Positions 26,689-45,609 of a stretch of 64,000 nt of DNA are shown here, piece by piece. Both the position numbers and the translations under genes were made by a program. The number at the start of each line of letters is the position of its first letter. The stretch's first letter is position 1. The notes beneath the pieces are model-generated. The model saw only the letters and a list, made by a program, of their open reading frames with translations. It was not told where the DNA came from and made no database searches. Source of the stretch: Sandaracinus amylolyticus (GTDB lineage: Bacteria; Myxococcota_A; Polyangia; Polyangiales; Sandaracinaceae); contig NZ_CP011125.1 in NCBI RefSeq assembly GCF_000737325.1, positions 6,758,001-6,822,000 on the forward strand, in the 5' to 3' direction.

Positions 26689-27321
26689 ATGGATCCGGGG
26701 CTCGTGATCGTCGTGGCGGTGCTCGGCATCGTCGCGCTGATGGGCGTCGCCGCGTGGCGGATGCGCCGCGTCGCGCGGGCGCGCCTCGACGCGCTGCGGA
26801 GCGCGCCGCGCATCGAGATCGAGATCATCTCGCAGCTTCGCGCCGGGGCGATCGCGGGCGTCGCGAGCCTCGTGCTGATCTTCGGGTTCTTCGTGCTCGC
26901 GCTGGCGCTCGGCGAGTGGGGCCGCTCGCACGCGCTCTGGATCGTCGTCGGGCTGATCGCGGCGACGCCGTTCTTCGTGACCGCGCCGCTCTTCGTGCTG
27001 CGCGAGTGGCAGCGCGTCGGACGTCTCGTGCTCGACGACGGGTCGCTGGTGCTCGAGCAGGGCGATGCGCGCACGGCGATCACGCTCGCCGACGAGTTCG
27101 CGCTGGGCGAGTCGGTGGTCCCGCCGGGGCAGCGCATCGAGGTCGTCGTGATCGTGCGGCAGGCGCGCTCGACGCTCGTGTTCCGCTATCCGGTGTTCCT
27201 CGGCGACGACGTGCTGGCGCCCGAAGGGACGGCATCACCGCCGATCGGCACGCTGCTCGGGCACGAGGCGCGCGCGATCCACGAGCGACTGCGCGACCTC
27301 AGTACTCGATCGAGAGCTTGA
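26689..27321 (+). CDS. Membrane protein of unknown function
   Basis: A 210-residue protein with three hydrophobic helices: residues 4-22 (VIVVAVLGIVALMGVAAW), 55-74 and 84-104. A cytoplasmic or periplasmic beta-rich C-terminal half follows, somewhat like a PH-type domain (RVGRLVLDDGSLVLEQGD). No family is recognised. It probably forms a two-gene unit with the phosphoesterase. Its last 23 bases overlap the convergent TonB receptor gene. Confidence 0.6.
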   Translation: MDPGLVIVVAVLGIVALMGVAAWRMRRVARARLDALRSAPRIEIEIISQLRAGAIAGVASLVLIFGFFVLALALGEWGRSHALWIVVGLIAATPFFVTAPLFVLREWQRVGRLVLDDGSLVLEQGDARTAITLADEFALGESVVPPGQRIEVVVIVRQARSTLVFRYPVFLGDDVLAPEGTASPPIGTLLGHEARAIHERLRDLSTRSRA

Positions 27322-29416
27322 GGAACGCGGCGCGGCTCGGGCGCTGCACGCGGAAGTAGTCGTAGAGCCGCTCGTCGCTGAGGTTCGTGATCTCGACGCT
27401 CGTCGAGACGCGCGGCGGGCCGAGCACGGAGTACGTGAGCGCGACGTCGTGGCCGAGCTGCGAGGGGACGACGTCCTTGGTGTCGGGGCGGCCGTTCGAC
27501 TCCCAGGCGCGCGTGAATTCGTGCACGTAGCGGGCGCGCCACTCGATCGCGAGCTCGTCGCGCGCGAAGAGGCCGCGCGCGCGGAACGAGGCACCGAAGT
27601 TCGCGAACAGCCAGGGGCGATACGGGATGCGATCGCCGCGCGTCGATGCGAACGTGCCCTCGTAGCTCGTGTTGCGATCGTCGAGGTACGTGAGGTTCGC
27701 CGAGAGCGAGACCCACTCGCCCGGGCTCACCCACGCCACGCTCCCCTCGCCTCCGATCGCGAGCGCTCGATAGACGTTCTGGTGCGAGAACGAGAGGTGA
27801 TCGCCGAGCAGGACGATCATGTTCTCTCGCGCGCGGACGAGGCCCGCGACGCTCGCGCGGAGCGCACCGATCGGCGTGTCGTCGAGATCGATGGCGACCT
27901 CGAGCGTCGCGTTGTGGCTGCGCTCGGGCGCGAGCCCGAGGTTCGCGACGATGAGCACTCCGTCGCCGAAGATCTCGTCGGGCTCGGGCAGGCGTGTCGC
28001 GTGCTCGTAGCTCGCGCGCACGAAGAGCCACTCGAGCGGTGCGACGCGCAGCCCTTCGCCGACACCGATCTCGTGCGCCTCGCGCCGTCGCAGCACGTAC
28101 GACGCGTCGGTGAGGATCTCCTCGGCGGACGCGAAGAAGACGTAGTCCTTCACGAAGATCTGGTTCTCGAGCACGCCGCCGAAGAGCGTCATCTGGTGCT
28201 CGAGCCCCGAGATCAGCGTGAAGAGCTCGCGCTCGGCGTTCAGCGGATCGCGCCCGCCGACGCTCGACTGCTCGCGGTCGATGCCGGTGCGCGCGACGAG
28301 CTCGGGCGTCACGTCGAGCAGGAGCCGATGCTCGTCGGCAGGACGCCACATCAGGTTGAGGCGCGCTGGCAACGCGTCCTGCCAGATCGTCTGATCGAAC
28401 GCGCGATTGCCGAGCTCGCCGGGCGCGGTGCGGCGACGCGGGCGCACGCGGCCGCGCCAGTCGTAGTGCGCGTCCGACGCGTCGTGGAGATCGATCGCGC
28501 GTCGCGTGTAGCCGACGTACGCGTCGAGCTCGACGTCGTCGGTGATCGCGTGCTGATAGCGCAGCAGCGCGCCGAACGAGACCTCGCCGGTCGTCGCGTC
28601 GCCGACCGGCGTGGTCGCGAGGACGTCGTGCTGGATGTCGCGATCGTGCTCGCCGACGAACGCGCGCAGGAGCAGGCGATCCGCGAACGGCGCGCCGACG
28701 AAGCCGCCTTCGAGCGCGATGCCGTACGCCTCGTACGCGCTGTGGAAGCGCTGGATGCGCGCGGGTGCGACACGACCGCGCGCGTCCTCGACCTCCACGT
28801 CCATCCACGCGTCGTTGCGCGAGCGATCGTAGTAGGCCTGCACGGCCGCGTAGAGCCGCGTCGCGTCGTCGCGATACCCCGCGCCGTGGGTGAGGCGGTA
28901 CGTGCCGAACGAGCCGATCTGCAGCGACGCGCCGACGTGCGGATCGAAGTACGACGCGGCGCGCACCACGTTGATCGCACCGCCGAGCGCATCGGTGCCG
29001 AAGCGCACCGGGACCATCCCGCGATAGACCTCGATGCGCTCGACGAGCCCGACCGGCACGCCCTGCACGCCCACGCCGAGCCCCGCGAGCTCGAGCGGCA
29101 CGCCGTCGAGGAACATGCGCACGCCGCTCCCACACACGCCGTGGATGCAGAGATCGACGGGCGCGCCGAGCCCTCCGGTGCGCCGCACGTTCAGCCCCTC
29201 GCTGCGCGCGAGCACTTCCGCGACGTCGGCACTGCGGTCGCGCGCCTCCTCGGTGTCGATCACGCGCACCGCGTCGCTCGACTGCGCGAGCTCCTCCGCC
29301 TCGCTCGGCGCGTGCACCACGACGTCGTCGGCGACGAGATCGTCGTCCTGCGCGTGCGCGCTCGGAGCGACGAGCAGCAGCGCGACGAACGAGACGAGCT
29401 CAGAACGTCGCGCCAC
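27299..29416 (-). CDS. mxcH: TonB-dependent siderophore receptor
   Basis: A 705-residue outer-membrane receptor. A signal peptide (VALLLVAPSAHAQ) is followed by a TonB-box-like DDVVVHA, a plug domain (residues about 40-150; LNVRRTGGLGAPVDLCIHGV, FLDGVPL, ALGGAINVV) and a 22-strand-type barrel ending in a C-terminal aromatic residue (LKLSIEY). It is the last gene of the leftward siderophore operon and overlaps the preceding gene by 17 bases, which supports a role in ferric-myxochelin uptake. A Cys pair in the plug (CIHGVCG) is unusual. The symbol follows the Stigmatella mxc locus by context only. GTG start at 29416. Confidence 0.85.
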   Translation of the reverse strand: MARRSELVSFVALLLVAPSAHAQDDDLVADDVVVHAPSEAEELAQSSDAVRVIDTEEARDRSADVAEVLARSEGLNVRRTGGLGAPVDLCIHGVCGSGVRMFLDGVPLELAGLGVGVQGVPVGLVERIEVYRGMVPVRFGTDALGGAINVVRAASYFDPHVGASLQIGSFGTYRLTHGAGYRDDATRLYAAVQAYYDRSRNDAWMDVEVEDARGRVAPARIQRFHSAYEAYGIALEGGFVGAPFADRLLLRAFVGEHDRDIQHDVLATTPVGDATTGEVSFGALLRYQHAITDDVELDAYVGYTRRAIDLHDASDAHYDWRGRVRPRRRTAPGELGNRAFDQTIWQDALPARLNLMWRPADEHRLLLDVTPELVARTGIDREQSSVGGRDPLNAERELFTLISGLEHQMTLFGGVLENQIFVKDYVFFASAEEILTDASYVLRRREAHEIGVGEGLRVAPLEWLFVRASYEHATRLPEPDEIFGDGVLIVANLGLAPERSHNATLEVAIDLDDTPIGALRASVAGLVRARENMIVLLGDHLSFSHQNVYRALAIGGEGSVAWVSPGEWVSLSANLTYLDDRNTSYEGTFASTRGDRIPYRPWLFANFGASFRARGLFARDELAIEWRARYVHEFTRAWESNGRPDTKDVVPSQLGHDVALTYSVLGPPRVSTSVEITNLSDERLYDYFRVQRPSRAAFLKLSIEY

Positions 29417-30146
29417 CGTCGACCCGCACGTCCTGGAGCGTCACGTGCCGCGCGCGCTCGGAGAGGAGGAAGAGCGCGACCTGCGCGACGTCGTCGGGCG
29501 TCGCGACGCGGCCCAGCGGGATGCCCAGCTTGAACGCGCCGGGGCGACCGCGGACGAGCTCGCTCGGCGAGGCGCCGTCGAGCATGCGCCGCAACATCGG
29601 CGTGTCGGTCGAGCCTGGCGACACGACGTTGCAGCGGATGCCGTGCGGCGCGAGCTCGAGCGCGAGGCACTGCGTCAGCATCGTCGCGGCGGCCTTGCTC
29701 GCGCAGTACGCGCCCATGCCCACGCGCGGCGTCGATCCCGCGTTCGACGAGATCGTGACGATCGCGCCGCGCGCGCGGCGGATCATGCGGGGTGCGAGGG
29801 CGCGCGAGATCGACCAGAGCCCCTCGACGTTCACCGCGAGCGCGTCACGGAGCGCGTCGTCGGGCGCATCGCAGATCGCGCCGAGCGACAGGACGCCCGC
29901 CGCGTGCACGAGGCCGTCGATCGCGCCGAGCTCGCGCTCCGCACGCTCGACGATGTCGACGAGCGCGCGCGCATCGCGCACGTCGGCGCGGTACCTCGAG
30001 ATCGCGGGGTGGTCGAAGGGCGCGCGCTCGTCCCGATCGATCGCGACGACACGCCCGCCCTCGCGCACGAGCGCGGCGGTGACCGCCGCGCCGATCCCCG
30101 ACGCCGCGCCGGTGACCAGCGTGATCGCGGGCAGGCGCGCGTCCAC
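29400..30146 (-). CDS. mxcC: 2,3-dihydro-2,3-dihydroxybenzoate dehydrogenase
   Basis: A 248-residue short-chain dehydrogenase of the EntA/DhbA type, which oxidises 2,3-dihydro-DHB to 2,3-dihydroxybenzoate with NAD+. Visible motifs are TGAASGIG (12-19), HAAGV (NNAG equivalent, 81-85), the catalytic YCASK (Tyr147, Lys151) and SPGSTDTPM, typical of EntA. It lies between the methyltransferase and the TonB receptor in the siderophore operon. With the isochorismate synthase and isochorismatase it completes the chorismate-to-DHB route. Confidence 0.92.
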   Translation of the reverse strand: MDARLPAITLVTGAASGIGAAVTAALVREGGRVVAIDRDERAPFDHPAISRYRADVRDARALVDIVERAERELGAIDGLVHAAGVLSLGAICDAPDDALRDALAVNVEGLWSISRALAPRMIRRARGAIVTISSNAGSTPRVGMGAYCASKAAATMLTQCLALELAPHGIRCNVVSPGSTDTPMLRRMLDGASPSELVRGRPGAFKLGIPLGRVATPDDVAQVALFLLSERARHVTLQDVRVDGGATF

Positions 30147-30147: not shown

Positions 30148-30693
30148 TCAGGGCTCCTCGTCGCGCGGCTTGAGGCCGATCAGCGTCACGACGCGCGCGC
30201 CGTCGTCGAGCATGCCCTCGTCGGCGATCTCGATCGCGACGAGCCCCGCGCGCGCGAGCAGCGTCATCACGTCATCGTCGCGCTCGACGTCGCGCGGCGA
30301 GATCACCTCGGCGCGATCGTGCACCAGCACTCGGCCCCCAGCGCGCGTGACCCGCGCGAGCTCGCGCATCGCGCGCAGGCGATCGTCGACGTCGCCCAGC
30401 ACGCGATCGGCGAGCACGACGTCGAAGCGCCCGTCGTCGAAGGGCAACGCGCGCGCGTCGGCGACCGCGAAGCGCACCGCGAGCGCGACGTGACGAGCGC
30501 GCCGGAGCGCCTCGTCGATGCGCGCGAGCGACGTGTCCACACCCGTCACGCGCGCGCCCACGATGCGCTCGGCGAGCGCGAGCGCGTCGTCGCCGACGCC
30601 ACAGCCGACGAGCAGCACGCTCGTCGCGTCGAGCGGGACGAGCGCGTGCGCACGGGGGCGCGGACGTGCCTCGAGCCACGGCGCCAGCATCAT
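30148..30693 (-). CDS. SAM-dependent methyltransferase in the siderophore operon
   Basis: A 181-residue class I methyltransferase. Motif I is VLLVGCGVGDDALALA, followed by VTGVDTSLARIDEAL (acidic motif II) and DARALPFDDGRFDVVLADRVLGDV, as in UbiE-like small-molecule methyltransferases. The ATG at 30693 overlaps the stop of the isochorismatase gene (ATGA), so it is translationally coupled to it. An upstream in-frame extension runs inside that gene and is rejected. A methyltransferase is not needed to make myxochelin A or B; it may O- or N-methylate the product or a precursor, or have a regulatory role. The substrate is inferred only from position. Confidence 0.8.
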   Translation of the reverse strand: MMLAPWLEARPRPRAHALVPLDATSVLLVGCGVGDDALALAERIVGARVTGVDTSLARIDEALRRARHVALAVRFAVADARALPFDDGRFDVVLADRVLGDVDDRLRAMRELARVTRAGGRVLVHDRAEVISPRDVERDDDVMTLLARAGLVAIEIADEGMLDDGARVVTLIGLKPRDEEP

Positions 30694-31343
30694 CCTTCTC
30701 CGCGCGAGGGCTCGAGCGCGCGCAGCGCGTCGCTCGTCGTCAGCACCACGCCCGCGGTGCGCGCGACCTGGCGCAGCGCGATCTCGTGATCCTCGCGCGA
30801 GAAGTCCGCGGTGGCGTCGGCGAGGAAGAAGGGCTGCACCCCGCGCATGCATCCGTCGACCGCCGTCGTGAGGCACCCGATGTGCGCGTAGATGCCGGTG
30901 ATCATCAGCTGATCGCGGCCGAGCGTGCGCAGGCGGTCGTGCAGGCGCGTCTCGAAGAACGCGCTGTAGCGCCGCTTCGGGATCAGCGCGTCCGCGTCGA
31001 TCTCACCGACGTCGAGGCCCAGCTTCGCGAGGCTGGGATGCTCGACGATGCCGGGTCCCCAGAGATCCCAGAGCAGGCCGCGCTCATCGCGGCTCTGCTC
31101 GCCCGGCTGCACCGAGAACAGCGCGGGAACGCCGACGCGCGCGCACGCGCCGACGAGCGCGCGCACGTGCTCGAGCACCGGACGGAGCGGCGACGCGCTG
31201 GGATCGAACGGCCGCAGGAAGTACGCCTGCATGTCGTGCACGAGCAGCGCGGCGCGCGAGGGCTCGAGCGTCCAGCGCGCGCGACACTCGGGCCACGAGC
31301 GCGGTGTGGGGAGCTCGTAGGGGGCGATCGTGGGAAGGGCCAT
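30690..31343 (-). CDS. mxcF: Isochorismatase without carrier domain
   Basis: A 217-residue isochorismatase that hydrolyses isochorismate to 2,3-dihydro-DHB and pyruvate. The catalytic Asp (LLVHDMQAYFL, Asp37) and the GIYAHIGCLTTA region with the nucleophile Cys are present. EntB, DhbB and MxcF are usually about 285 or more residues because an aryl carrier domain follows; here the protein stops right after the hydrolase domain and the carrier is encoded separately at 32525. It overlaps the methyltransferase start by 4 bases and lies 6 bases after isochorismate synthase. Confidence 0.9.
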   Translation of the reverse strand: MALPTIAPYELPTPRSWPECRARWTLEPSRAALLVHDMQAYFLRPFDPSASPLRPVLEHVRALVGACARVGVPALFSVQPGEQSRDERGLLWDLWGPGIVEHPSLAKLGLDVGEIDADALIPKRRYSAFFETRLHDRLRTLGRDQLMITGIYAHIGCLTTAVDGCMRGVQPFFLADATADFSREDHEIALRQVARTAGVVLTTSDALRALEPSRGEG

Positions 31344-31349: not shown

Positions 31350-32528
31350 CTACCTCTCGTCGTCGGCTCGCTCGGCGTGCGAGCGAGGAGGATCGACTTC
31401 GCGCGAAGGCAGGAGCGCACCGAGGACGGTGCGCATCTTCGCGCTGGTCTCTGCGAGCTCGAGCTCGGGATCGGAGCTGCCGACGATGCCGGCGCCCGCG
31501 AACACACGAACGCGCGCGCCCGCGATCTCGGCGCAGCGGATCGCGACGATCCAGTCGCCGTCGCCGCCCGCGCGCGTGTAGCCGAGCGCGCCGGTGAAGT
31601 AGCCGCGATCGAGCGCCTCGAGCCGCGCGATCCACTCGCGCGCCGCGCGCGTCGGCAGCCCGCACACCGCGGGCGTCGGATGCAGCGCGACGGCCAGGCG
31701 CAACGAGGAGAGATCGCGATCGCGCAGCGTTCCCTCGATGCGCGTCGAGAGATGCCACATCGTGGGCGTCGCGCTGACCACCGGCTCCCGCTCGAAGCGG
31801 AGCGCGCGCGTGAGCGGCGCGAGGCTCGCGACGACGTGCTCGACGACGATCTCGTGCTCGTGACGATCCTTCGGCGAGCGCAAGAGGCGCGCGGCGCGCT
31901 CGCGATCTTCGATCGGATCTGCGCAGCGCGGGCTCGATCCCGCGAGCGGCACGCTGACCACCGTCGTCCCGCGTCGCGAGAGCAAGAGCTCGGGGCTCGC
32001 GCCGACGAGGCGCGTCGGGTCGCTCGCGCCGGGCGCGACGTCGAGCGAGTACGTGAAGCCGTGCGGGTTGCGCGCGCGCAGCACCGCGAGCAGCGCGTTC
32101 ACGTCGGGCCTCTGGTCGACGGTGAGCTCCGTCGCGCGCGCCAGCACCACCTTCTTCAGCGCGCCGCCGCGGATCGCGCCCGCCGCCTGCGCGACCGCGT
32201 CGACGAACCCGCCGCTCTCGTCGTGCGCAGCGCGATCGATCGGCGTGCGCGCGATCGCGCGCGATGCGCCCGTCGTCGCTCCCCACGCGTCGGACACGAG
32301 CGCGCGCGCGGGGCGGAAGAGCCGCACCGGCGCGTCCTCGCCGAACGGCAGCGCACCGACCACGAGCGCCGCGCGCGGATCGTCCGACGCGGCGAGCGCA
32401 CCATCGATCTCCGCGAGCCATCGCTCGGGCGCGCGCAGCGTCCCGTGGAACGACTCGCGCTCGCCCTCGCCCACCACGGTGCGCGTGGGCCCGGCGAGGA
32501 AGAACGCAGGCACGTCGGCGCGCATCAC
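31350..32528 (-). CDS. mxcD: Isochorismate synthase
   Basis: A 392-residue chorismate-utilising enzyme of the EntC/DhbC type, which converts chorismate to isochorismate, the first committed step. Family features are KKVVLARATEL, FTYSLDVAPG, LVGASPELLLSR, PLAGSSPRC, HEIVVEHVV, HLSTRIEG and FTGALGY, with a C-terminal GAGIVGSSDPELELAET. Length is normal. Its start overlaps the stop of the carrier protein gene by 4 bases, placing it firmly in the operon. Confidence 0.92.
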   Translation of the reverse strand: MMRADVPAFFLAGPTRTVVGEGERESFHGTLRAPERWLAEIDGALAASDDPRAALVVGALPFGEDAPVRLFRPARALVSDAWGATTGASRAIARTPIDRAAHDESGGFVDAVAQAAGAIRGGALKKVVLARATELTVDQRPDVNALLAVLRARNPHGFTYSLDVAPGASDPTRLVGASPELLLSRRGTTVVSVPLAGSSPRCADPIEDRERAARLLRSPKDRHEHEIVVEHVVASLAPLTRALRFEREPVVSATPTMWHLSTRIEGTLRDRDLSSLRLAVALHPTPAVCGLPTRAAREWIARLEALDRGYFTGALGYTRAGGDGDWIVAIRCAEIAGARVRVFAGAGIVGSSDPELELAETSAKMRTVLGALLPSREVDPPRSHAERADDER

Positions 32529-32761
32529 GGCTCCACCCCCACGCGACGCGCGAGACCGCGCAGCGTCGGCTCCTCCGCGAGGTCGGCGAACGTCACCTCG
32601 ACCCCGCCCTCGCGGATCCGCTCGACCAGGCTCATCAGTCGGATCGAGTCGAGGCCCCAGTCGAGCAACGAGTCGTCCGGCGCGAGCGAGCTCGCATCGA
32701 CCTCGATCAGCGCAGCGATCTCCGCGACGAGCGCGGGGTACGTCGCAGGCAGCGCGCTCAC
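32525..32761 (-). CDS. Free-standing aryl carrier protein
   Basis: A 78-residue carrier protein. [10 protein letters not shown] contains the phosphopantetheine-accepting Ser39 in the LDS motif of aryl carrier proteins. It would carry 2,3-dihydroxybenzoate, loaded by the neighbouring AMP ligase, to the NRPS condensation domain. In EntB and in MxcF of Stigmatella this domain is fused to isochorismatase; here it is a separate gene between the AMP ligase and isochorismate synthase, overlapping each by 4 bases. Confidence 0.9.
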
Positions 32762-34377
32762 GACGCTCCTCCCGCGGCGAGGCGACTCGCCAGCGCGGCC
32801 TTGTCGATCTTCCCGACGCTGGTGCGCGGCAGCGCGTCGCTCACGAGCTCCACGCGATCGGGGAGCTTGAAGGTCGCGACACCGCGCGCGCGCAGGTGCG
32901 CCATCAGCGCGGCACGCGTGATCGGGCGATCACCGACCACGATCGCGCAGATGCGCTCGCCGACGATCGCGTCGTGCATGCCGAGCACCGCCGCCTCGCG
33001 CACGTCGGGATGCGCGACGAGGTGCTGCTCGAGCTCGGCGGGCGCGATCTTCTCGCCGCCGCGGTTGATCTGCTCCTTCGCGCGCCCTTCGACGACGAGC
33101 GACCCGTCGGGCATGCGGCGGACGCGATCGCCGGTGCGATAGAACCCGTCGCGCGTGAACGCGATCGCGTCGTGCTCGGGCACGCGGTAGTAGCCGCGGA
33201 TCGTGTAGGGCCCGCGCGCGAGCAGGTGCCCCACCTCGCCCTCCGGCACGTCGCGATCCTCGTCGTCGACGATGCGCACTTCGTCGTCCTCGGAGATCGG
33301 CCGGCCCTGCGTGGTGATCACGCGCTCGAGCGGATCGTCGAGGCGCGTGTAGCAGACGAGCCCTTCGGCCATCCCGAAGACCTGCTGGAGTCGGCACCCG
33401 AGGCCCTCGATCAGATCACGCGCGAGCTCGACGCCGAGCTTCGCGCCGCCGACCTGCAGCACCTCGAGCGAAGGAAAGCGCAGCCCGCGCGCGCGCATCG
33501 CCGCGAGCCACGCGCGCGCGAGCGGCGGCACGAGCGCCGTGATCGTCACGCCCTCGCGCGAGAGCAGCGGGAACGCGGCGTCGGGATGAGCCTCGCGGCT
33601 CATCACGACGCGCGCCCCCGCGACGAGCGCGCCGAGCACCCCCGGCGAGCTCAATGGGAAATTGTGCGCGCCCGGCAGCGCGACGAGGTACACGCTCCGC
33701 GCGTCGAGCCCGCAGATCGGCACGCTCGCGCGCACGCTGTAGAGATAGTCGTCGTGCGTGCGCGGGATCAGCTTCGGCGTCCCGGTGCTGCCGCCCGACA
33801 GCTGCAGCAGCGCGACCTGCCTCGCGTCGACGGCGGGCAGCGTGCGCGGCGCGCCGTCGAGCGACGCGAACGGCACCAGCTCCTGCGCATCGCCGACGAC
33901 GATGACGTGTCTGAGCGTCGGCGTGCCGGCCTTCACCTCGCGCGCGAGCGCGCGGTGGTCGAACCCGGCGACCACGTCGGCGCAGACGTACGCGACCGCG
34001 CGCGTGTGCTCGCAGAAGTGCGCGATCTCCGCGCGCCGATGACCCGACAGCGCCATCACGGGGATCGCACCGAGCCGCCACAACGCGAACAGCGTCTCGA
34101 TCAGCTCGAGCACGTTCGGCAGCTGCACCACCACGCGATCGAGCGGACGGATCCCGAGCTCGATCATCGCGGACGCCACGGCATCGACGCGCGCATCGAG
34201 CTCCGCGTACGTCGCGCGCCGTGCGCCGCACACGACGGCGACGCGCTCGCCGTGACGTCGCGCGCCCTCGCGCACGATCGAGTCGAGTGGATCACCTCGC
34301 CAGTGCCCGGCGCGTCGATACCGCTCTGCGACGTCGTGGGGCCAGGGCACGCAGCCCTCGAGCAGCGTCGTGCTCAT
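32758..34377 (-). CDS. mxcE: 2,3-dihydroxybenzoate-AMP ligase
   Basis: A 539-residue adenylating enzyme of the EntE/DhbE type, which activates DHB and loads it onto the aryl carrier protein. It begins [24 protein letters not shown]-like EntE N-termini do. [16 protein letters not shown] is the ATP-binding P-loop, [11 protein letters not shown] and [13 protein letters not shown] are EntE-specific, and Lys in TSVGKIDK is the catalytic Lys. ATG at 34377 overlaps the stop of the upstream reductase gene (ATGA). An in-frame upstream extension to 34842 lies inside that gene and is rejected. Confidence 0.93.
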
Positions 34378-36465: not shown

Positions 36466-36487
36466 CGCGAGCCGACCTAACCACGAG

Positions 36488-36502
36488 TGAGAATGACTTT
36501 CA
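36488..36502. promoter_or_regulatory. Fur box 1
   Basis: TGAGAATGACTTTCA fits the 7-1-7 Fur pattern TGAxAAT-x-ATTxTCA with one clear mismatch. It lies 23 bases upstream of mxcL. Confidence 0.7.
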
Positions 36503-36509
36503 AGGGCTT

Positions 36510-36524
36510 TGATAATAATTCTCA
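36510..36524. promoter_or_regulatory. Fur box 2
   Basis: TGATAATAATTCTCA is a perfect 7-1-7 Fur box by pattern. Read as the 19-base consensus from 36511 it agrees at about 14 of 19 positions. It is the best of the three sites and sits in an AT-rich island inside very GC-rich DNA. Confidence 0.85.
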
Positions 36525-36543
36525 CTTTCATTTTCAGCGCGAT

Positions 36544-36558
36544 TGACAGTCATTCTCA
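36544..36558. promoter_or_regulatory. Fur box 3 overlapping a -35 element
   Basis: TGACAGTCATTCTCA is a 7-1-7 Fur-like site. It overlaps TTGACA at 36543-36548, followed 17 bases later by TAGGCC, a possible promoter for the NRPS gene at 36579. Fe(II)-Fur bound here would block transcription when iron is plentiful. Confidence 0.75.
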
Positions 36559-36578
36559 ATTGACGTAGGCCACCGCCG

Positions 36579-39500
36579 ATGTCGAGGTCCGACGGCGAGC
36601 GACTCTCCGAGGCACAGCTCGGCATTTGGTTGGGGCACCAACGCGCCCACGACGGCACGGTGCTCCATGCCGCCGAGTGCGTGGTTTTCGAAGGACTTCT
36701 CGACGTCGCGGCGTTCGCGCGCGCGCTGGACGCCACCCTCGTCGAGGCGACCGCGCTCCAGGTCGCGTTCGAAGAGGCGCGAGGTGAGCCACGACGCGTC
36801 AGGCGCGAATACGACGGTGTGCGCCTCGAGCGGACGTCACTCAACGGGGAGGCGGAGCTTCTCCGACATGCCCAGCGAGAGGTTCGCCGGCCGCTCGACC
36901 TCCAGCGCGGCGCCCTCTCCCGCCACCAGCTGCTCACCCTCGGCCCCGGCCGCTACGCGTGGCTCCACGTCGCGCACCACATCGCGCTCGACGGCTACGG
37001 CTTCCACCTCGTCGCGGCGCGGGTCGCGGAGCACTACGCGTCGCTCCAGCGCGACGATCGCCTCGCGACCCGCGGCGCGCTCACCGCGTTCGAGCCCGTG
37101 CTCGACGAGGACGACGCGTACCAGCGCTCGCCGCAGCGCGAGGCCGATCGCGCGTTCTGGCGCGACGAGCTCGGCGCGCGTCGTGGCCTGAGCTTCGGCG
37201 CGCCCGCGATGCCGGGGCACGGCCTGCGCACGTGGCACCGCTGGGACGGCGAGCGCGCGCAGCGCGTGCGCGACGCGGCGTCGCGAGTGGGCGTGTCGTG
37301 GATGGAAGCGCTCCTCGCGGTGATCGCCGCGCACGTCGGCGAGCGCGCGTCGACGCGCTCGTTCCTGCTCGGGCTGCCGGTGATGCTGCGGCTCGGCACG
37401 CGCGCGCTGCGAACGCCGTGCATGGCGATGAACCTCGCGGCGCTGCCGATCGATCTCGACGCGGCGTCGAGCATCGGAGCGCTCGCACGCACGATCCGCG
37501 CGGCGCTCGCGCGGCAGAAGCGGCACCAGCGCTATCGCTACGAAGCCCTCCGCGTCGATCGCGCGGCGCTCGGCGGACGGCTCTTCGGTCCGGTGGTGAA
37601 CGTGATGCCGTTCGCGCTGCCGGCGCGCTTCGGTGACTGCAGCGCGCGCGTGCTGCGCGTGTCGGCGGGGCCCGTCGAGGAGCTCGCGTACACGATCGCG
37701 CCGTGTGACGAAGGGCTCGAGCTGACGCTCGACGGACACGCCGAGCGCTTCGACGAGCGCGAGCTCACCGCGATGGCGCGCACGCTGGAGCGCGATCTCG
37801 ACGCGTGGCTCGACGCGCCCGATCGACCGTTGCGCCCCCGCAGCACCGCGACGACCCGGCCGCACGTCGCGCCGACCTGGCCGCTCGATGCGCTCGGCGA
37901 GCATGCGCGCACGACCCCGGATGCGACCGCGCTCGTCGAGGGCGAGCGTTCATGGACGTACGCGGAGCTCGATCGTGGCGCGCGGCGATGCGCGGAGTGG
38001 CTTCGCGCAGCCGGCTGCGAGCCGGGATCGCTGGTCGCGATCGAGCTCCCGCGGAGCGCGATCGGGATCGTCGTGATCCTCGGCACGCTCTGCGCGGGCG
38101 CGGGCTACGTCGCGCTCGATCCCGCGCAGCCGAGCGCGCGGCGAGCCCGCGTGATCCATGCGGCGAAGCCGCGCTTCGTGGTGACGCCCGACGCGCTTCC
38201 ACACGACGCGCTCGAGGCGTGGACCGCGCCGGGCTCGACGACGCCGCCGAGCGCGCGCGACGACGCGAGCATCGCGTACGTCGTGTTCACGTCCGGCAGC
38301 ACCGGCGAGCCGAAGGGGGTCGCGATCTCGACCGGTGCGCTCGCGTGGTTCGTCGGCGCGGCGTCGTCGCGCTACGGCGTGTGCGCGCGCGATCGCGTGC
38401 TGCAGTTCGCGCCGTGGACCTTCGACGCGAGCGTCGAGGAGATCTTCGTCACGCTCGCGTCCGGCGCCGCGCTGGTGCTGCGCGACGACGCGGCGATCGA
38501 GTCACCGGAGGCGTTCTTCGCCGCGTGCGCGCGCGGTGGGATCACGGTGCTCGACCTGCCCACCGCGTTCTGGCACGAGCTCGCGCTCGCCGTCGCGCGG
38601 CGCGCGCTGACGCTGCCCTCGTGCGTGCGTCTCGTGATCATCGGCGGCGAGGCGGCATCGCCGGAGCGCGCGCGGCAATGGCGCGAAGGCGCGCGCGAGG
38701 CGCGCCTCGTCAACACGTACGGGCCGAGCGAGGCGACGGTGGTCGCGACGTGCGCGGCGCTCGACGACACGACGCGCGACGAAGCGCCGATCGGCACGCC
38801 GCTCCCGGGCATCGACGTCGCGATCGTCGACGAGCACGGCGCCGTCGTGACCGCACCCGGCGCGGTGGGCGAGCTCTGGCTGCTCGGGCCCACGCTCGCG
38901 ACGGGTTATCTCGGGCGCGACGATCTCACGCGCGAGCGCTTCGTGACGCTGCCCGGGTGCGGCCGCGCCTATCGCACCGGCGATCTCGCGACGTGGCGCG
39001 ACGACGGACAGCTCGCGCACCGCGGTCGCGTCGACGACGAGCTGAAGATCAGCGGACATCGCATCTGCCCCGCGGAGGTCGAGGCCGCGCTGTGCCGTCA
39101 TCCCCAGGTGCGCGCCGCGGTGGTGTGGGGCGATGCGGCGAAGCGATTGCTCGCGAAGGTGGAGGCCGACGCGATCGACACGACCGCGCTGCGCCGCTTC
39201 GTGCGCGAGCAGCTGCCTGCGCCGATGGTTCCATCGGTGCTCGAGGTCGTCGCGCGCCTTCCGCGCACGACGCACGGGAAGATCGATCGCGTCGCGGTGC
39301 GGAGCGCGCCGTGCGACGACGCGCCCGAGCACGATCCCGACGTATCCGCGCTGGAAGCGCGGGTGATCGAGGCGTGGCGCGCCGTGCTCGGGGTGACGCG
39401 CGTCGAGCTCGACGACGACTTCTTCGCGCTCGGCGGGCACAGCCTGCACGTGATCCAGCTCGCGAACCGCCTCAGCGGCGCGGGCGCGGAGATCCGCGTC

Positions 39501-40727
39501 GCGGAGATCTTCCGTCGCCCGACGCCGCGCGCGCAGGCAGCGCTGCTCGCGTCGGCGGCTGGAGCGCCGCCACACGAGACGATCTTCGAGCCGGGCTCGG
39601 TGTCGCTGCCTCCGTCCTGGGCACCCGCGCCCGCGACGCTGGGGCGAGGCCGCGTGCTGCTGACCGGCGCGACCGGGTTCGTCGGCGTGCACCTGCTCGC
39701 GAGCTGGCTCGAGCGCTCCGACGACACGATCGTGTGCACCGTCCGAGCGAGCGATGACGCGACGGCCCGCGCACGTCTCTTCACGCGCGCGGAGGAGCTC
39801 GGGATCGAGCTCGGCCCCGCGGCCCATCGCATCGAGGTGATCGCCCTCGATCTCACGGCGCGCGATCTCGAGATCGCACCCTGCGCGACGGTGTTCCACT
39901 GTGCTGCGCAGGTCAGTCTCGCGCGCGACTACGACAGCCTGGCCGCCGTGAACGTCGTCGCGACGCGCGAGCTGCTCGGCCTCGCGCTGCGCTGGGGCGC
40001 GCAGCTCCACTACGTCTCGTCGATCGCGACGGTCCCGCGCAGCGAGCCCGAAGAGCGACTCCATCCCGCGCACGCCGGGCTCGTCGACGGATATCAGCGC
40101 TCGAAGTGGCAGGGAGAGGCGCTCTGCGCGGAAGCGGGCAATCGCGGTCTCCGCGTCGCGGTGCATCGGCTCGGGCGCGTCGCCGGTCCTCGCCGGCGTC
40201 CCAGCGTCAATCGAGGCGATCTCGTGTGGCGCATCGGGCGCGCCGCCACGCGCGTCGCTGCATGGCCCGACCTGCCGGTGGAAGAGCCGTGGATCCCCGC
40301 GGACGACGCCGCGAGCTCGATGGTTCGCTTGGCGCTCGCCGATGCGGCCACGACGCCCGCGAGCGCGTACCACTTGGTCCACACCGGCAGCGTCGCGCTC
40401 GATCGTGTCCGGGAGGCGCTGACGTGCATCGGATATCCGCTCGCGCGTGTGTCGGTGTCCGACTGGATGACGCGAGTCCGCGCCCGCGGTGACGACGAAG
40501 ACCGTTCCACGCTGGCCTTCTTCGAGCTCCGCGCCATCGACGCCCACACGGCCGCGAGCGCAACACCGGAATACCCGTGCGCGCGTGTGCTCGCGCGTCT
40601 GCCCGACCTCGACACGCGCGCCGTCGATTCGGCGCTGCTCATTGGATATTGCCGGCATGCGCAGGCGATTGGCGTCCTCCCCCGGACGCCCGATTCCGAC
40701 TCTGTTCGATCTGGAGACGAGGGATGA
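36579..40727 (+). CDS. mxcG: Myxochelin-type NRPS: C-A-PCP-reductase
   Basis: A 1382-residue single-module peptide synthetase. Condensation domain, residues 1-420, with HHIALDG (His133, His134, Asp138). Adenylation domain, about 430-930, with FTSGSTGEPKG and YRTGDL. Hand alignment to GrsA gives pocket residues D-A-E-D-I-G-T-V-V, an acidic pocket that suits lysine. Carrier domain with GGHSL, Ser near 954. Terminal reductase from about 1020 with LTGATGFVG and the catalytic YQRSK near 1171. It would acylate both lysine amines with DHB and release an aldehyde reductively, then alcohol. Same organisation as MxcG. Its stop overlaps the next start. Confidence 0.92.
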   Translation: MSRSDGERLSEAQLGIWLGHQRAHDGTVLHAAECVVFEGLLDVAAFARALDATLVEATALQVAFEEARGEPRRVRREYDGVRLERTSLNGEAELLRHAQREVRRPLDLQRGALSRHQLLTLGPGRYAWLHVAHHIALDGYGFHLVAARVAEHYASLQRDDRLATRGALTAFEPVLDEDDAYQRSPQREADRAFWRDELGARRGLSFGAPAMPGHGLRTWHRWDGERAQRVRDAASRVGVSWMEALLAVIAAHVGERASTRSFLLGLPVMLRLGTRALRTPCMAMNLAALPIDLDAASSIGALARTIRAALARQKRHQRYRYEALRVDRAALGGRLFGPVVNVMPFALPARFGDCSARVLRVSAGPVEELAYTIAPCDEGLELTLDGHAERFDERELTAMARTLERDLDAWLDAPDRPLRPRSTATTRPHVAPTWPLDALGEHARTTPDATALVEGERSWTYAELDRGARRCAEWLRAAGCEPGSLVAIELPRSAIGIVVILGTLCAGAGYVALDPAQPSARRARVIHAAKPRFVVTPDALPHDALEAWTAPGSTTPPSARDDASIAYVVFTSGSTGEPKGVAISTGALAWFVGAASSRYGVCARDRVLQFAPWTFDASVEEIFVTLASGAALVLRDDAAIESPEAFFAACARGGITVLDLPTAFWHELALAVARRALTLPSCVRLVIIGGEAASPERARQWREGAREARLVNTYGPSEATVVATCAALDDTTRDEAPIGTPLPGIDVAIVDEHGAVVTAPGAVGELWLLGPTLATGYLGRDDLTRERFVTLPGCGRAYRTGDLATWRDDGQLAHRGRVDDELKISGHRICPAEVEAALCRHPQVRAAVVWGDAAKRLLAKVEADAIDTTALRRFVREQLPAPMVPSVLEVVARLPRTTHGKIDRVAVRSAPCDDAPEHDPDVSALEARVIEAWRAVLGVTRVELDDDFFALGGHSLHVIQLANRLSGAGAEIRVAEIFRRPTPRAQAALLASAAGAPPHETIFEPGSVSLPPSWAPAPATLGRGRVLLTGATGFVGVHLLASWLERSDDTIVCTVRASDDATARARLFTRAEELGIELGPAAHRIEVIALDLTARDLEIAPCATVFHCAAQVSLARDYDSLAAVNVVATRELLGLALRWGAQLHYVSSIATVPRSEPEERLHPAHAGLVDGYQRSKWQGEALCAEAGNRGLRVAVHRLGRVAGPRRRPSVNRGDLVWRIGRAATRVAAWPDLPVEEPWIPADDAASSMVRLALADAATTPASAYHLVHTGSVALDRVREALTCIGYPLARVSVSDWMTRVRARGDDEDRSTLAFFELRAIDAHTAASATPEYPCARVLARLPDLDTRAVDSALLIGYCRHAQAIGVLPRTPDSDSVRSGDEG

Positions 40728-42415
40728 CGAAGAACGACAATACAATCTGGATTGCCCGCGCGACGGTCGTGCTCGCGATGCTCGCCGTCGGGGCGGGCTG
40801 CGGCGGAGACGACGACTCCGGCACGAGCGAGACCGACAGCGGTGTCGGTCCCGGCCAGGAGGACGGCGGCACGCGCGTGGACGGCGGCACGAACGTCCCC
40901 GACGAAGACGCGGGCGCCGGAGAGGACGCTGGCTCGAGCGACGCCGGATCGGTCGGTGAGGACGGCGGACCGCCCTATCCCTCCCTTCCGCCCGTTCTCT
41001 CGGTGAGTGGCTGTCAGGCGCTCGCGATCGGGCCGCTCTGCTCCGTCACACAAGACGGCGACGCGCTCTCTGCCAACTGCAGCGGACGAGTCCTCACTGG
41101 CACCGTCAGCGAGAGCGGGAACGTGGCGCTCGCGGCCGATCCGTGGACCACGAGCGAAGGCGCGACTGCCATGCTCGCGTGCACCGGCCGATTCGTGCTC
41201 GGACAGCTCACCGCGACGTGCACGCGCACGACGACGGCAGTCGGCGAGACGCCGGCGGGCGAGCAGACGTGCAATCTCCTCTCGGATCGCGACGTCCTCC
41301 CCGGGGTCACGTGCCTCGAGCTCCCGCCGCGGCTCGACGACGTCGTCCTGTGCGTCGAAGGTGACGCACGCGGCGGCGCGACGATCACCGCCGGCACGTG
41401 CCGCGTGATCCAGGACGGCTGCGCGTTCCAGGCGGAGTGCGCGGACGACCTCGTGCTCACCGGCACCGTCACCCGGACCGGCATCAGCTTCAGCCAGCGG
41501 CTCGAAGCGCTCGCCGACGCACAGACGCCCTCGGGCGGCGGCAGCCCCGCGTTCATGGCGGGCGACATCGTCGCTCACAGCTGCACTGCGACGCTCGAGG
41601 GAACGACGCTGAGCGGCTCGTGCGGCGCCGGACGCGCGGGTCGCGGCGGCGCGGACACCAGCGTCTGTGCGATCTCCGGTGCGCAGGTCGCGCCGCCGAC
41701 GTGTGATCTCGTCGCGCCCGCGAGCGAGACGCTCTTCGCGCTGCACTCGTGCGACGAGCTCCGCAACGGGGTCGGCGGCGAGCCGGGGATCGGCGAGCCG
41801 GTCTGCGCGTTCCGACAGAACAACTGCATCTGGGAGGTCAATTGCGGGAACAATCCGCTGCTGACCTTCAGCGGGCGGATCGCGCCCGGCGACGACTCGG
41901 TGCGTTGGCACCTGCTGACGGGCACGCCGTGCGAGATCGGATTCGACGACGCGGGCAACCTCGAGGGCGAGTGCACGGTTCCCGGCGAGGAGGCGTGCAT
42001 GCTCCGCAGCATCGACGCGGTGCCCGGCGGCGAGACGTGCCCGGCGGCGGTGAACGATGCCGAGTTCACCTCGCGCGGATGCGGCGCCGCGATCGACTGC
42101 CGCATCGCGGTGCAGCACCAGTGCGCGTTCATGGCGCTCTGCTCGTTCACGACGCGATTCCCCGACGTCGTCATCGCAGGTCGCTCGTCGTACGTCGACG
42201 GCCGCCCGCACCTCGCGTTCAACGGTCTCACGGACTGGCAGTGCTACGTCGACCAGGCGACGACGGACGAGATCACGAGCGGTGATCGCGTGACCGGCGA
42301 GTGGTACGGCCAGTGCGTCAATCCGTCCGGCGGCATGTGCCGCAACAACTACAACCCTGCGACCGGTACCGGGTTCCGCGGACTGCAGGTGTTCTTCGAG
42401 TCGTCGGCGGAGTGA
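40724..42415 (+). CDS. Four-repeat Cys-rich lipoprotein coupled to the NRPS gene
   Basis: A 563-residue lipoprotein (LAVGAGC, Cys26) with an Asp/Gly linker to residue 85, then four divergent repeats at about 96-195, 196-326, 327-437 and 438-540. Each repeat has the pattern C-x(2)-IxxxC-x-F/V-x-x-x-C, a beta stretch such as VLTGTVTRTGIS, then GxLxGxC and a final Cys; 30 Cys in all, presumably disulfide-paired. The ATG overlaps the NRPS stop (ATGA), so it is translationally coupled to siderophore synthesis. I know no function. A surface protein that binds or hands over ferric siderophore is a reasonable guess from position. Confidence 0.75.
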   Translation: MTKNDNTIWIARATVVLAMLAVGAGCGGDDDSGTSETDSGVGPGQEDGGTRVDGGTNVPDEDAGAGEDAGSSDAGSVGEDGGPPYPSLPPVLSVSGCQALAIGPLCSVTQDGDALSANCSGRVLTGTVSESGNVALAADPWTTSEGATAMLACTGRFVLGQLTATCTRTTTAVGETPAGEQTCNLLSDRDVLPGVTCLELPPRLDDVVLCVEGDARGGATITAGTCRVIQDGCAFQAECADDLVLTGTVTRTGISFSQRLEALADAQTPSGGGSPAFMAGDIVAHSCTATLEGTTLSGSCGAGRAGRGGADTSVCAISGAQVAPPTCDLVAPASETLFALHSCDELRNGVGGEPGIGEPVCAFRQNNCIWEVNCGNNPLLTFSGRIAPGDDSVRWHLLTGTPCEIGFDDAGNLEGECTVPGEEACMLRSIDAVPGGETCPAAVNDAEFTSRGCGAAIDCRIAVQHQCAFMALCSFTTRFPDVVIAGRSSYVDGRPHLAFNGLTDWQCYVDQATTDEITSGDRVTGEWYGQCVNPSGGMCRNNYNPATGTGFRGLQVFFESSAE

Positions 42416-42420
42416 TCCCC

Positions 42421-42479: not shown

Positions 42480-42508
42480 CCAGTCGTGCAGCACCGAGAG
42501 CAGTACTC

Positions 42509-43315
42509 ATGGACATGCGATTCACGTTCTCCGAGCGCGCCAGCCTCGCGGAGGTCTCCGCGCTGCGCGAGCAATATCTCGACGAGCTTCCGGAAGCCCA
42601 GGACGCGCTGCTCGAAGCGCGCGTGTCGGCGGGACGCTGTCACGCGATCCACCTCGCCGGGGCGCCCTGCGGATATTTCGTGGTCGCGGACGACACGCTC
42701 CTCGAGCTCCACCTGACCCCGGAGACGGCGCGATTCGCGATCTTCCTGCTCCCTCGCATCGTCGCGGAGCACGCGATTCGCGCGGCGCTCGTGAAGACCT
42801 TCGATCACGTGCTGCTCGCGCCCGCGCTCGACCTCGCGCGCGAGGTGCGCGTCCTCGGTGTGCTGGTGCGCGAGTTCGAGGCGCCGGAGACCCCCGAGAG
42901 CGAGCGAGCCCCCTACACCCAGCGCCCGGCGAGCGTCGACGATCTGCCGCGCATCCGCGCGATCGAGCAGGACGTCTTCACGCATCCCGAGCGCCTCCGA
43001 CGGGTGATCGAAGCGCAGCAATTGCACCTGTTCGAGCACGACGGTGCGCTGATCGGATTCGGAATCGTGCGCCCCGTGATCGCGGGACGCGCCGACGTCG
43101 AGATCGGAATCGCGGTCGACGTTCCGTTCCGGAGCAAGGGATATGCGGTGCAGCTCCTCCGCGACATGGCGGAGCAGTGCCGCGCGCGCGGCCTGAATCC
43201 GGTCTGCGGCTGCGCGCGATCGAACGAAGCGTCGATCAGGACGGGACTCCGCGCCGGCTTCTCGTCGCGGCACCGACTGATCGAAGTGCGCTTCGCCTCG
43301 GACGAGAAGCGATAG
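42509..43315 (+). CDS. GNAT acyltransferase in the siderophore locus
   Basis: A 268-residue protein. The C-terminal half (about 135-268) is a GNAT domain: DVEIGIAVDVPFRSKGYAVQLLRDM gives the acetyl-CoA pyrophosphate loop (PxxRxxGxA). The N-terminal half has the outline of a second, degenerate GNAT fold (CGYFVVADDTLLELHL), as in tandem-GNAT proteins. It lies in the rightward Fur-controlled run, after the long hairpin. It could acylate a siderophore amine or a metabolite; its position between lipoproteins and the PepSY gene favours an iron-related role. The substrate is unknown. Confidence 0.75.
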   Translation: MDMRFTFSERASLAEVSALREQYLDELPEAQDALLEARVSAGRCHAIHLAGAPCGYFVVADDTLLELHLTPETARFAIFLLPRIVAEHAIRAALVKTFDHVLLAPALDLAREVRVLGVLVREFEAPETPESERAPYTQRPASVDDLPRIRAIEQDVFTHPERLRRVIEAQQLHLFEHDGALIGFGIVRPVIAGRADVEIGIAVDVPFRSKGYAVQLLRDMAEQCRARGLNPVCGCARSNEASIRTGLRAGFSSRHRLIEVRFASDEKR

Positions 43316-43337
43316 GCGCACGAGTGTGGAGACGGCG

Positions 43338-44615
43338 ATGAACCAACGATATCGATTCGTGATCGTGAGCCTGGCGCTGATTGCGTCGCTGAGCGCGGCG
43401 TGCGGCGACGACGACGACGGCTCGACCCCGACCGACGGGGGCAATCCGGACACCGACGGCGGCGCTCCGCCTCCGACCGACGGCGGCGAGCCCGCGCCGC
43501 CCGTGTATGCCGTGATCACGCAGGTCTTCGAGGCGATGGGCCAGACGAGCTACGTCGTCCTCACCGGTGATCTCACGCGGACGACGACCCTCGCGCTCCA
43601 CGACGCGACCGAGCTGCCGGGACGCGCGATCGGCGCGGGCCCGACCGGCGGTGGCGCGCTCTACGTCGGCGGCACCGAGGGCCCGACCATCACGCGCTAC
43701 GACCTCTCGCAGGACGGAACGACGCTCGAAGAGGGCGACACCGTGAGCTTCGCGGGCGCCGGCGTGACGTCGATCGGCGAGTACCAGGATCAGCTGCAGT
43801 TCGTGTCGGAGACGAAGGCCTACTACTTCGACGGTCGATCCGCGCAGATGATCGTGTGGAACCCGAGCGAGATGACGGTCGAGCGCGCCGTCGATCTCTC
43901 GGAGCTGGTGATCGAGCGCGCGCTCCTGACGTTCTCGACCAACGCGGTGCGCCACGGCGAGCACATCGTGTTCCCGCTCGGATGGCGCAGCGACGTGGAC
44001 GCGCGGATCATCAGCGTCGCGGGCGTGCTCGTCGTCGACACGCGCGACGACTCGTTCACCGTCGCGCGCGACGAGCGCTGCGGATACGTGCGCACCGCGG
44101 CGGAGGGTGACGATGGGCGGCTCTACCTCGCGACGGAGGCGTACGGCTCCGCGGTGCACCGCGTCGTCGCGGCGAACGCGCCCGCGCCGTGCTTGCTGCG
44201 GCTCGACGAGTCGTGGTCGGCGTTCGACACGTCGTTCCACGTCGAGCTCTCGACGCTCGTCGGCGGCGCGACGGCGGGCTCGCTCGTGCAGAGCGACGGG
44301 GCGACCACGTGGATCCGCGTGCTCGACGAGAGCGCGGTCACCGTGACGCCCGAGACCAACCCGCGCGTGCTCGCGAGCACGCGTGCGTGGCAGTGGTGGC
44401 GGATCACCCTCGGCCCCACGCCCACCGCGGCGGTGCAGGAGATCGGGACGAGCAACGGGAGCGAGTTCCTGCTCAACGTCGACGATCACGCGGTCATCCC
44501 GGAGTTCGCGAGCGATCGTTCGCAGACCGTGCTGCGCGATGCGTCGGACGGCACTCCGTCCGACGCGAACGTGACGGTGCCGGGTCTCACGTTCTCGCTC
44601 GTGCGCATCCGCTGA
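43338..44615 (+). CDS. Beta-propeller-like lipoprotein of siderophore loci
   Basis: A 425-residue lipoprotein (LALIASLSAAC, Cys21) with an Asp/Thr/Gly linker, then a repetitive beta body of about 360 residues (YFDGRSAQMIVWNPSEM, LVVDTRDDSFTVARDERCGYV) that suggests a propeller. It resembles the DUF4374 proteins found next to PepSY genes in myxobacterial and other iron loci (MxcI-like), but I am only moderately sure of this. ATG at 43338 follows TGGAGA; an in-frame GTG at 43326 is less likely. The PepSY gene starts 13 bases downstream. Confidence 0.7.
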   Translation: MNQRYRFVIVSLALIASLSAACGDDDDGSTPTDGGNPDTDGGAPPPTDGGEPAPPVYAVITQVFEAMGQTSYVVLTGDLTRTTTLALHDATELPGRAIGAGPTGGGALYVGGTEGPTITRYDLSQDGTTLEEGDTVSFAGAGVTSIGEYQDQLQFVSETKAYYFDGRSAQMIVWNPSEMTVERAVDLSELVIERALLTFSTNAVRHGEHIVFPLGWRSDVDARIISVAGVLVVDTRDDSFTVARDERCGYVRTAAEGDDGRLYLATEAYGSAVHRVVAANAPAPCLLRLDESWSAFDTSFHVELSTLVGGATAGSLVQSDGATTWIRVLDESAVTVTPETNPRVLASTRAWQWWRITLGPTPTAAVQEIGTSNGSEFLLNVDDHAVIPEFASDRSQTVLRDASDGTPSDANVTVPGLTFSLVRIR

Positions 44616-44628
44616 CGGAGCGGCCAGC

Positions 44629-45609
44629 ATGTCGGCGCCGATCCTCACCGCGCTCAGGGCGCGCATCGCACACTCGCCGCGCGCTCCGGCCCCGGGCGCG
44701 CGCACCCGCGCAATGCGCTGGATCCGCAAGATCCACATGTACCTCGGCCTCGCGCTCTTCCCGTGGATCATCTTCTTCGGGGTGAGCGGGATGCTCTTCA
44801 ACCATCCCGGCGTCGGCGAGGACGTGCGCGCGCGCCCGATCCCCGCCGAGCACCTGCGCGAGCACGCGGGCATCACGCCGATGGCGCCGCGCGCGGTCGC
44901 GGAGGACGTCGTCGCGGCGCTGCGCGCGGAGGGTCACTCGCTGCGCCTCGACGACGAGTACGAGAGCCGCTTCCAAGGATCGCTCGCGTTCGGCGCGAGC
45001 GGGCCCGGCGTGAAGCACCTCGTGCTCGTCGATCCCGCCGCGGGTCGCGGCCTGCTCCTGTCGCGTCCCGATCACACCGCCGCGCCGCCGCCCTTCGCCG
45101 GCACGATCGACCTGCCCGACCATCGCATCTCCGACGTGGAGGCGCGCATCGCGTCGCTGCTGCCGACGCTCGGCGTGGACGACGCGCACGGACCACTGCG
45201 CGCGCGGATCGCGCCGAGCGTTCGCTTCCGCACCATCGACGCCGACGGGCATCGCTGGAACGTCACCTACGATCTGCGCACCGGGCGCGTCGATGGACGG
45301 CTCACCGAGCGCTCACCCGCGCTGAGCCTCCACGACCTGCTCGGCGCGATGCACAAGACGCATCACTACCCGCCCTCGCTCGGCCCGACGACGTTCTGGG
45401 CGCTCTTCGCCGACCTCACGGGGCTGACGCTGATCATCTGGGCGCTCACCGGGCTCGTGATGTGGTGGCAGCTCAAGAAGACGCGCGCGCTCGGCGTGAT
45501 CGCGGTGAGCGTGGGCGTGCTCGTGGCGGCGCTCACGATGGTCGCGACCCACGACGAGCTGCGCTTCGGGAACGTCCGCCCCGAGGAGCCGGGCCGAGCG
45601 AGCGACTGA
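44629..45609 (+). CDS. PepSY-domain membrane protein, iron uptake
   Basis: A 326-residue inner-membrane protein of the PepSY-associated type. The first helix (residues 38-56, IHMYLGLALFPWIIFFGVSG) carries the family's early His. A large periplasmic part follows with LHDLLGAMHKTHHYPP, then two helices (about 255-275 and 285-302). Relatives beside siderophore genes are thought to reduce ferric siderophores with heme-bound electrons. It ends the rightward siderophore run. A small palindrome, CGACT-G-AGTCG, covers its stop codon. Confidence 0.82.
   Translation: MSAPILTALRARIAHSPRAPAPGARTRAMRWIRKIHMYLGLALFPWIIFFGVSGMLFNHPGVGEDVRARPIPAEHLREHAGITPMAPRAVAEDVVAALRAEGHSLRLDDEYESRFQGSLAFGASGPGVKHLVLVDPAAGRGLLLSRPDHTAAPPPFAGTIDLPDHRISDVEARIASLLPTLGVDDAHGPLRARIAPSVRFRTIDADGHRWNVTYDLRTGRVDGRLTERSPALSLHDLLGAMHKTHHYPPSLGPTTFWALFADLTGLTLIIWALTGLVMWWQLKKTRALGVIAVSVGVLVAALTMVATHDELRFGNVRPEEPGRASD

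Follow-up and report, generated by a model that had tools for sequence, protein, structure and literature searches.

Which siderophore does Sandaracinus amylolyticus assemble from the genes described here, and by what route might the iron-loaded compound return to the cell that released it? Both questions arise at positions 27299–45609 of a 64,000-nucleotide stretch, hereafter the window (bases 6758001–6822000 of a genome comprising one contig of 10,327,335 bases). A sequence-only reading of this DNA had proposed a myxochelin-type siderophore locus. Our analysis confirms the underlying observation and supports that interpretation; we put at roughly three in four the probability that these genes form a divergent siderophore system of the myxochelin type, repressed by iron and equipped with an XusABC-like module of its own for recapture. 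The presence of a myxochelin cluster in this species is already known, since S. amylolyticus is listed as a carrier in Table 3 of PMC12766979. The additions made here are the divergent lineage of the peptide synthetase and the XusABC-like uptake set. Genome sampling was uneven across the comparisons that follow.

Biosynthetic genes and synthetase lineage

The locus consists, as had been claimed, of 14 genes that diverge from a single promoter. Nine lie on the minus strand and five on the plus strand, and the promoter measures 113 bp. Outward from this promoter, the minus strand encodes an MxcL-type aminotransferase, a siderophore-interacting reductase, a 2,3-dihydroxybenzoate (DHB)-AMP ligase, an aryl carrier protein, an isochorismate synthase, an isochorismatase, an S-adenosylmethionine (SAM)-dependent methyltransferase, a DHB dehydrogenase, and a TonB receptor. 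The plus strand encodes a nonribosomal peptide synthetase (NRPS) with condensation, adenylation, peptidyl carrier and reductase domains (C-A-PCP-R), a cysteine-rich lipoprotein, a GNAT acyltransferase, a beta-propeller lipoprotein, and a PepSY membrane protein. Adjacent genes mostly overlap or lie some tens of bases apart, an operon-like arrangement. The methyltransferase, the GNAT enzyme and both lipoproteins had gone unmentioned in the sequence-only reading.

That reading had also asserted that every enzyme leading from chorismate to a bis-DHB-lysine siderophore is encoded, and domain or profile matches recovered each of them. On the minus strand, the isochorismate synthase (31350–32528) scores 263 bits against TIGR00543, above the cut-off of 224.75. 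The isochorismatase (30690–31343) matches the Pfam Isochorismatase family, is 95.9% identical to its counterpart in a congener (genome G353), and lacks a fused carrier domain; the aryl carrier is encoded separately by a gene of 78 codons (32525–32761; Pfam PP-binding, 58 bits) with the carrier serine motif LDSI. The EntA-type 2,3-dihydro-DHB dehydrogenase (29400–30146) has its best NCBIfam matches among the models for that enzyme and, with 289 bits, narrowly misses their cut-off. The EntE/MxcE-type DHB-AMP ligase (32758–34377) reaches 688 bits against TIGR02275 (cut-off 723.55). Aligned with DhbE, it keeps an asparagine and a serine where a salicylate ligase has an asparagine and a cysteine, positions which we take to be substrate-pocket sites separating the DHB type from the salicylate type; its pocket is thus DhbE-like. 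DHB supply, activation, and a carrier to receive it are therefore all present. The aminotransferase (35203–36465, with a revised start), which depends on pyridoxal phosphate (PLP), belongs to Aminotran_3, carries the PLP lysine motif, and is 58–66% identical to MxcL of other mxc loci.

The NRPS (36579–40727, plus strand) retains intact motifs in its condensation (HHIALDG), carrier (GGHSL) and reductase domains, the last with both its cofactor motif and YxxxK. Its adenylation code, extracted by motif position, is DAEDIGTVVK. The identical code was found in the Polyangium, Archangium and Hyalangium clusters, as well as in Jeongeupia and Herpetosiphon; it differs by one residue in Sorangium, Pseudoalteromonas and Azotobacter, and is dissimilar in three unrelated NRPSs returned by the same search. 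A literature search for the code itself gave no result, so the assignment of lysine specificity draws on this identity with clusters of known product.

Taken together, these enzymes outline a pathway in which isochorismate synthase, isochorismatase and the dehydrogenase would convert chorismate to DHB, which the EntE-type ligase would load onto the free aryl carrier. The NRPS would then activate lysine, acylate both of its amines with DHB, and release the product reductively as an aldehyde. Further reduction of this aldehyde would give the alcohol, myxochelin A, and its transamination by MxcL the amine, myxochelin B. Judging from its genes, the cluster very probably yields a myxochelin-type siderophore. 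As the gene set and code match the mxc pathway, which has been reconstituted with MxcE, MxcF, MxcG and MxcL (summarised in PMC9611931), myxochelins A and B are the expected products. In Myxococcus xanthus these appear at m/z 405.167 and 404.183, respectively (PMC4158809).

Phylogenetic comparison sets the synthetase apart from its best-known relatives. In a tree built from the sequence up to the carrier domain, the NRPS of the window forms one clade (100/100) with those of the congener and of G182, a genome from another family of the order. Jeongeupia joins this clade (100/100), and the canonical myxobacterial NRPSs form a clade of their own (100/100). On this tree the enzyme belongs to a distinct, divergent lineage common to the congener and G182. 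The occurrence of one adenylation code on two separate NRPS lineages shows that at least two lineages of mxc exist among myxobacteria. The nearest NRPS outside the Sandaracinus type was found in the betaproteobacterium Jeongeupia naejangsanensis, which suggests horizontal transfer of the lineage.

With the canonical mxc clusters of Archangium, Hyalangium, Polyangium and Sorangium, the locus shares the DHB genes, the C-A-PCP-R NRPS, the same or nearly the same code, MxcL, an MxcH-like receptor, and an XusB-like lipoprotein. Unlike them, it has an NRPS of the other lineage, a free aryl carrier, two divergent operons, and additional methyltransferase, GNAT and cysteine-rich lipoprotein genes; the Hyalangium cluster, in turn, includes genes for a class-II 3-deoxy-D-arabino-heptulosonate 7-phosphate (DAHP) synthase and a major facilitator superfamily (MFS) transporter, neither of which occurs here. 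The Jeongeupia locus has MxcL and DHB genes alongside its identical code, but no MxcH relative was found in the locus compared and no XusB-like gene in the genome.

The divergent promoter and its Fur-type sites

Three Fur boxes had been proposed between the two operons, and a consensus search bears them out. With up to three mismatches allowed, TGATAATNATTATCA has exactly three matches in the 64-kb window (36488, 36510 and 36544), all of them between 36488 and 36558, against an expectation of 0.02 for the whole window. Four matches occupy the corresponding promoter position in the congener. A clear Fur protein is encoded in the genome, which also yields one more match to the FUR family. Once bound at the tandem sites, Fur would switch off both operons when iron is sufficient.

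The extent of this promoter depends on where MxcL begins. The listed start at 36531 would place two of the three Fur boxes within its coding sequence. In the congener, an in-frame TAG lies just upstream of the ATGCCCGAC start of MxcL, and homology to relatives begins near residues 24–27 of the listed protein. For these two reasons the start is probably at 36465 (MPDSLPRP), and the divergent promoter, which belongs to neither strand, accordingly spans 36466–36578. In G182, the divergent promoter (L051:14826–14970) contained no match to the Fur consensus and two copies of GACTCGCATCTTCA; control may therefore differ in that genome.

The XusB-like lipoprotein and its proposed receptor partner

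Uptake and reduction had been attributed to the TonB receptor, the siderophore-interacting reductase and the PepSY protein. The genes for all three are present, but the description was incomplete, as it omitted the beta-propeller lipoprotein with which the set becomes XusABC-like. The MxcH-like outer-membrane receptor (27299–29416, minus strand) has the Pfam plug and barrel domains, and the flavin adenine dinucleotide (FAD)-binding reductase (34374–35189, minus strand) matches FAD_binding_9 and SIP. On the plus strand, the lipoprotein (43326–44615), a proposed ferric-siderophore binder, is followed by the PepSY membrane protein (44629–45609), with PepSY_TM and PepSY_TM_like_2 above cut-off and a proposed role as an XusC-like ferric-siderophore reductase.

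The lipoprotein matched no curated family in Pfam or NCBIfam, and a search of the PDB with its single sequence returned nothing useful; it was linked to XusB only by a family profile and by its predicted fold. The profile, built from 15 relatives, matches Bacteroides XusB structures at approximately 1e-6. The AlphaFold model finds B. fragilis XusB as its best match (Foldseek E 2.8e-13; Z 22.0 over 338 residues, 4.2 Å), followed at Z of about 18 by another XusB and BtuG-type lipoproteins and at about 15 by generic propellers. Identity to XusB in structural alignments is only 9–16%. Pfam DUF4374 is matched by five of the 15 relatives, with E values no higher than 0.1 and 9e-5 for the best of them; only two papers mentioning that family were found, and both concern Bacteroidetes. 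The lipobox cysteine is invariant among the aligned relatives.

In Bacteroides, XusB, a surface lipoprotein that binds siderophores, works with the TonB receptor XusA and the PepSY protein XusC in the uptake of xenosiderophores (PMC13142918). The window resembles that system in encoding a TonB receptor, a beta-propeller lipoprotein and a PepSY membrane protein in a single, here divergent, locus, and differs from it in that the set accompanies genes with which the organism would make a siderophore itself. By sequence, modelled fold and gene linkage, the three proteins form an XusABC-like set. Anchored in the outer membrane, the lipoprotein would capture the ferric complex and hand it over to the receptor, and the PepSY protein, the siderophore-interacting reductase, or both would free the iron by reduction.

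Linkage in other genomes lends weight to this pairing. An XusB-like gene adjoins MxcH in all of the named myxobacterial mxc clusters compared (Archangium, Hyalangium, Polyangium and Sorangium), and PepSY homologues adjoin the lipoprotein gene in the latter two. Within the Archangium family, 29 of 30 high-scoring MxcH loci have the gene next to the receptor, the exception falling at a contig end. Three genomes carry MxcH at a distance from mxcG or on a separate contig, and there too the lipoprotein gene accompanies the receptor. The pairing is not universal: among 24 loci at which the receptor gave a long match, an XusB-like gene occurred within short flanks in 18; it was not found within several kb of the receptor in G216 or G449, and was likewise not found in Herpetosiphon or in two Pseudoalteromonas genomes which, like Jeongeupia, carry related NRPS loci. 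The profile behind the adjacency counts includes one unrelated sequence among 22, a CxxCH lipoprotein of G182, whose effect we judged negligible because the matches are very strong. This protein (L139:3457–4614), encoded between the GNAT and PepSY genes, was considered as the XusB-like lipoprotein of G182 and rejected, as it carries two CxxCH motifs and has no Pfam matches. It resembles a c-type cytochrome and replaces the XusB-like gene at that position; the XusB-like gene of G182 adjoins the receptor instead.

The receptor and lipoprotein trees, from which the CxxCH lipoprotein was excluded, disagree. A single clade (100/99) takes in the lipoproteins of mxc loci and leaves out ten orphan paralogues from Sandaracinus; the receptor of the window, by contrast, falls with two orphan receptors of Sandaracinus (100/100) and away from those of the canonical mxc loci. 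The receptor at 27299–29416 thus sits with paralogues of its own genus and the lipoprotein at 43326–44615 with mxc-linked lipoproteins of other families. Receptors may have been duplicated within the Sandaracinus line while the lipoprotein kept its siderophore association; given the long branches flagged in the lipoprotein tree and the small sample, we regard this as a lead rather than a result.

Orphan uptake modules also occur elsewhere in the genome. At least two further sets, near 6.70 Mb (L053) and 8.95 Mb (L054), combine an MxcH-like receptor and a PepSY_TM protein with one or two XusB-like lipoproteins. A PepSY_TM gene and two lipoprotein genes lie at 8.17 Mb (L057), and a single lipoprotein gene near 8.01 Mb (L058). 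Fur-like sites were noted at L053, L057 and L058, and siderophore synthesis genes were not recognised beside any of the four. Such orphan modules could serve foreign siderophores. In other genomes, MxcH scores above the NCBIfam cut-off where no MxcG match was found at E 1e-150, namely in G090 (L192), G216 (L191), G306 (L010, L025) and G476 (L190); on this pattern, these organisms are possible users of myxochelin made by others. A literature search on the names mxcH, mxcI and mxcK gave nothing useful, and we have not assigned the mxcI and mxcK labels; the lipoprotein gene may have been named earlier.

Accessory genes, competing readings and significance

The methyltransferase, GNAT and cysteine-rich lipoprotein genes are accessory to the pathway. 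The small SAM-dependent methyltransferase (30148–30693, minus strand; Methyltransf_11 and Methyltransf_25 above cut-off) is kept in both the congener and G182. The cysteine-rich lipoprotein (40724–42415, plus strand), with no Pfam family above cut-off, was detected in only three of 377 sampled genomes, all of them carrying the Sandaracinus-type locus (the window's own, the congener and G182); a partial second copy lies elsewhere in G182. The GNAT acyltransferase (42509–43315, plus strand; Acetyltransf_19) was detected in two of 282 sampled genomes, its own (G000) and G182, with a further copy in the congener. The congener's locus is collinear at 80–96% identity and flanked by matching amidase and thiolase genes. 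G182 shares the minus-strand genes from MxcL through the dehydrogenase, including the methyltransferase, as well as the NRPS, cysteine-rich lipoprotein, GNAT and PepSY genes.

Several observations weigh against the system proposed here. The NRPS scores 1155 bits on the NCBIfam MxcG model (NF038078), for which the cut-off is 2300. The receptor scores 833 bits on the MxcH model (NF038079) against a cut-off of 925, and two other receptors of the same genome outscore it (894 and 885). The lipoprotein reaches only 12.1 bits on DUF4374 (PF14298), where the gathering cut-off is 25, and its model is of middling confidence, with a mean predicted local distance difference test score (pLDDT) of 71 and a weak last blade. 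The pathway leaves the three accessory genes unexplained, and a siderophore exporter was not found within the locus. The low NRPS and receptor scores, together with the separate NRPS lineage, are the reason we describe a divergent myxochelin-type locus. The sequence-only reading had ascribed its differences from the known pathway to gene order and fusions; the pathway set is indeed complete, but the locus is not merely the standard cluster reordered.

The accessory genes bear directly on the alternative that the product is a modified bis-catecholate, with the methyltransferase, the GNAT enzyme, or both decorating DHB-lysine, for instance by N-acylation of the myxochelin B amine, and with myxochelins A and B as intermediates or by-products. 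Each of the two genes is part of one of the operons and is retained in the congener and G182, and succinylated myxochelin B is known, although its acylation has been proposed to be non-enzymatic (PMC9611931). Against such decoration, methylation of a catechol would weaken iron binding, proteins are frequent targets of GNAT enzymes, and for neither enzyme was a close relative with an established substrate identified; we consider it possible but unlikely. The release of an azotochelin-like free acid in place of reduced products is a far more doubtful proposition. The Azotobacter vinelandii NRPS has a nearly identical code (DAEDIGTVI) and DHB genes in common with the window, but its match extends only to query residue 1017, short of the reductase domain, and MxcL was not found in the locus compared, whereas the NRPS of the window has a full reductase domain with both motifs and MxcL alongside.

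Two further alternatives concern uptake. The lipoprotein might bind another ligand, such as cobalamin, and neighbour the siderophore genes incidentally; BtuG-type cobalamin lipoproteins are, after all, among its next structural matches and also appear in the profile search. As XusB is the best match by both profile and fold, as the gene goes with MxcH receptors in different families, including genomes in which mxcG lies apart from the receptor, and as it lies here in a Fur-type operon, we find this improbable. The locus might, alternatively, serve uptake alone, its biosynthetic genes being relics, and no report of a product was found in the literature consulted. With all frames open, catalytic motifs intact and the conservation seen in the congener, such decay is scarcely credible. 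A functional myxochelin-type pathway coupled to an XusABC-like uptake set remains our preferred account.

Few biosynthetic clusters are as widely conserved in myxobacteria as those for myxochelin (PMC12766979), while in M. xanthus a TonB receptor has been named merely as a candidate for the uptake of ferric myxochelin (PMC3986340). The recurrent pairing of MxcH with an XusB-like lipoprotein offers a specific, testable model for this step. We tentatively propose, with rather less confidence than we attach to the locus itself, that myxochelin-producing myxobacteria recapture their own siderophore with the help of an XusB-type lipoprotein on the cell surface, the regular companion of MxcH, so that lipoprotein-assisted uptake would not be solely a matter of piracy in the Bacteroidota. 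Ligand identity in Sandaracinus would then reside in the lipoprotein and not in the barrel of the receptor, and several orphan receptor-lipoprotein-PepSY sets would import foreign siderophores. If this is true, a mechanism known from gut Bacteroides extends to soil predators which make the siderophore themselves.

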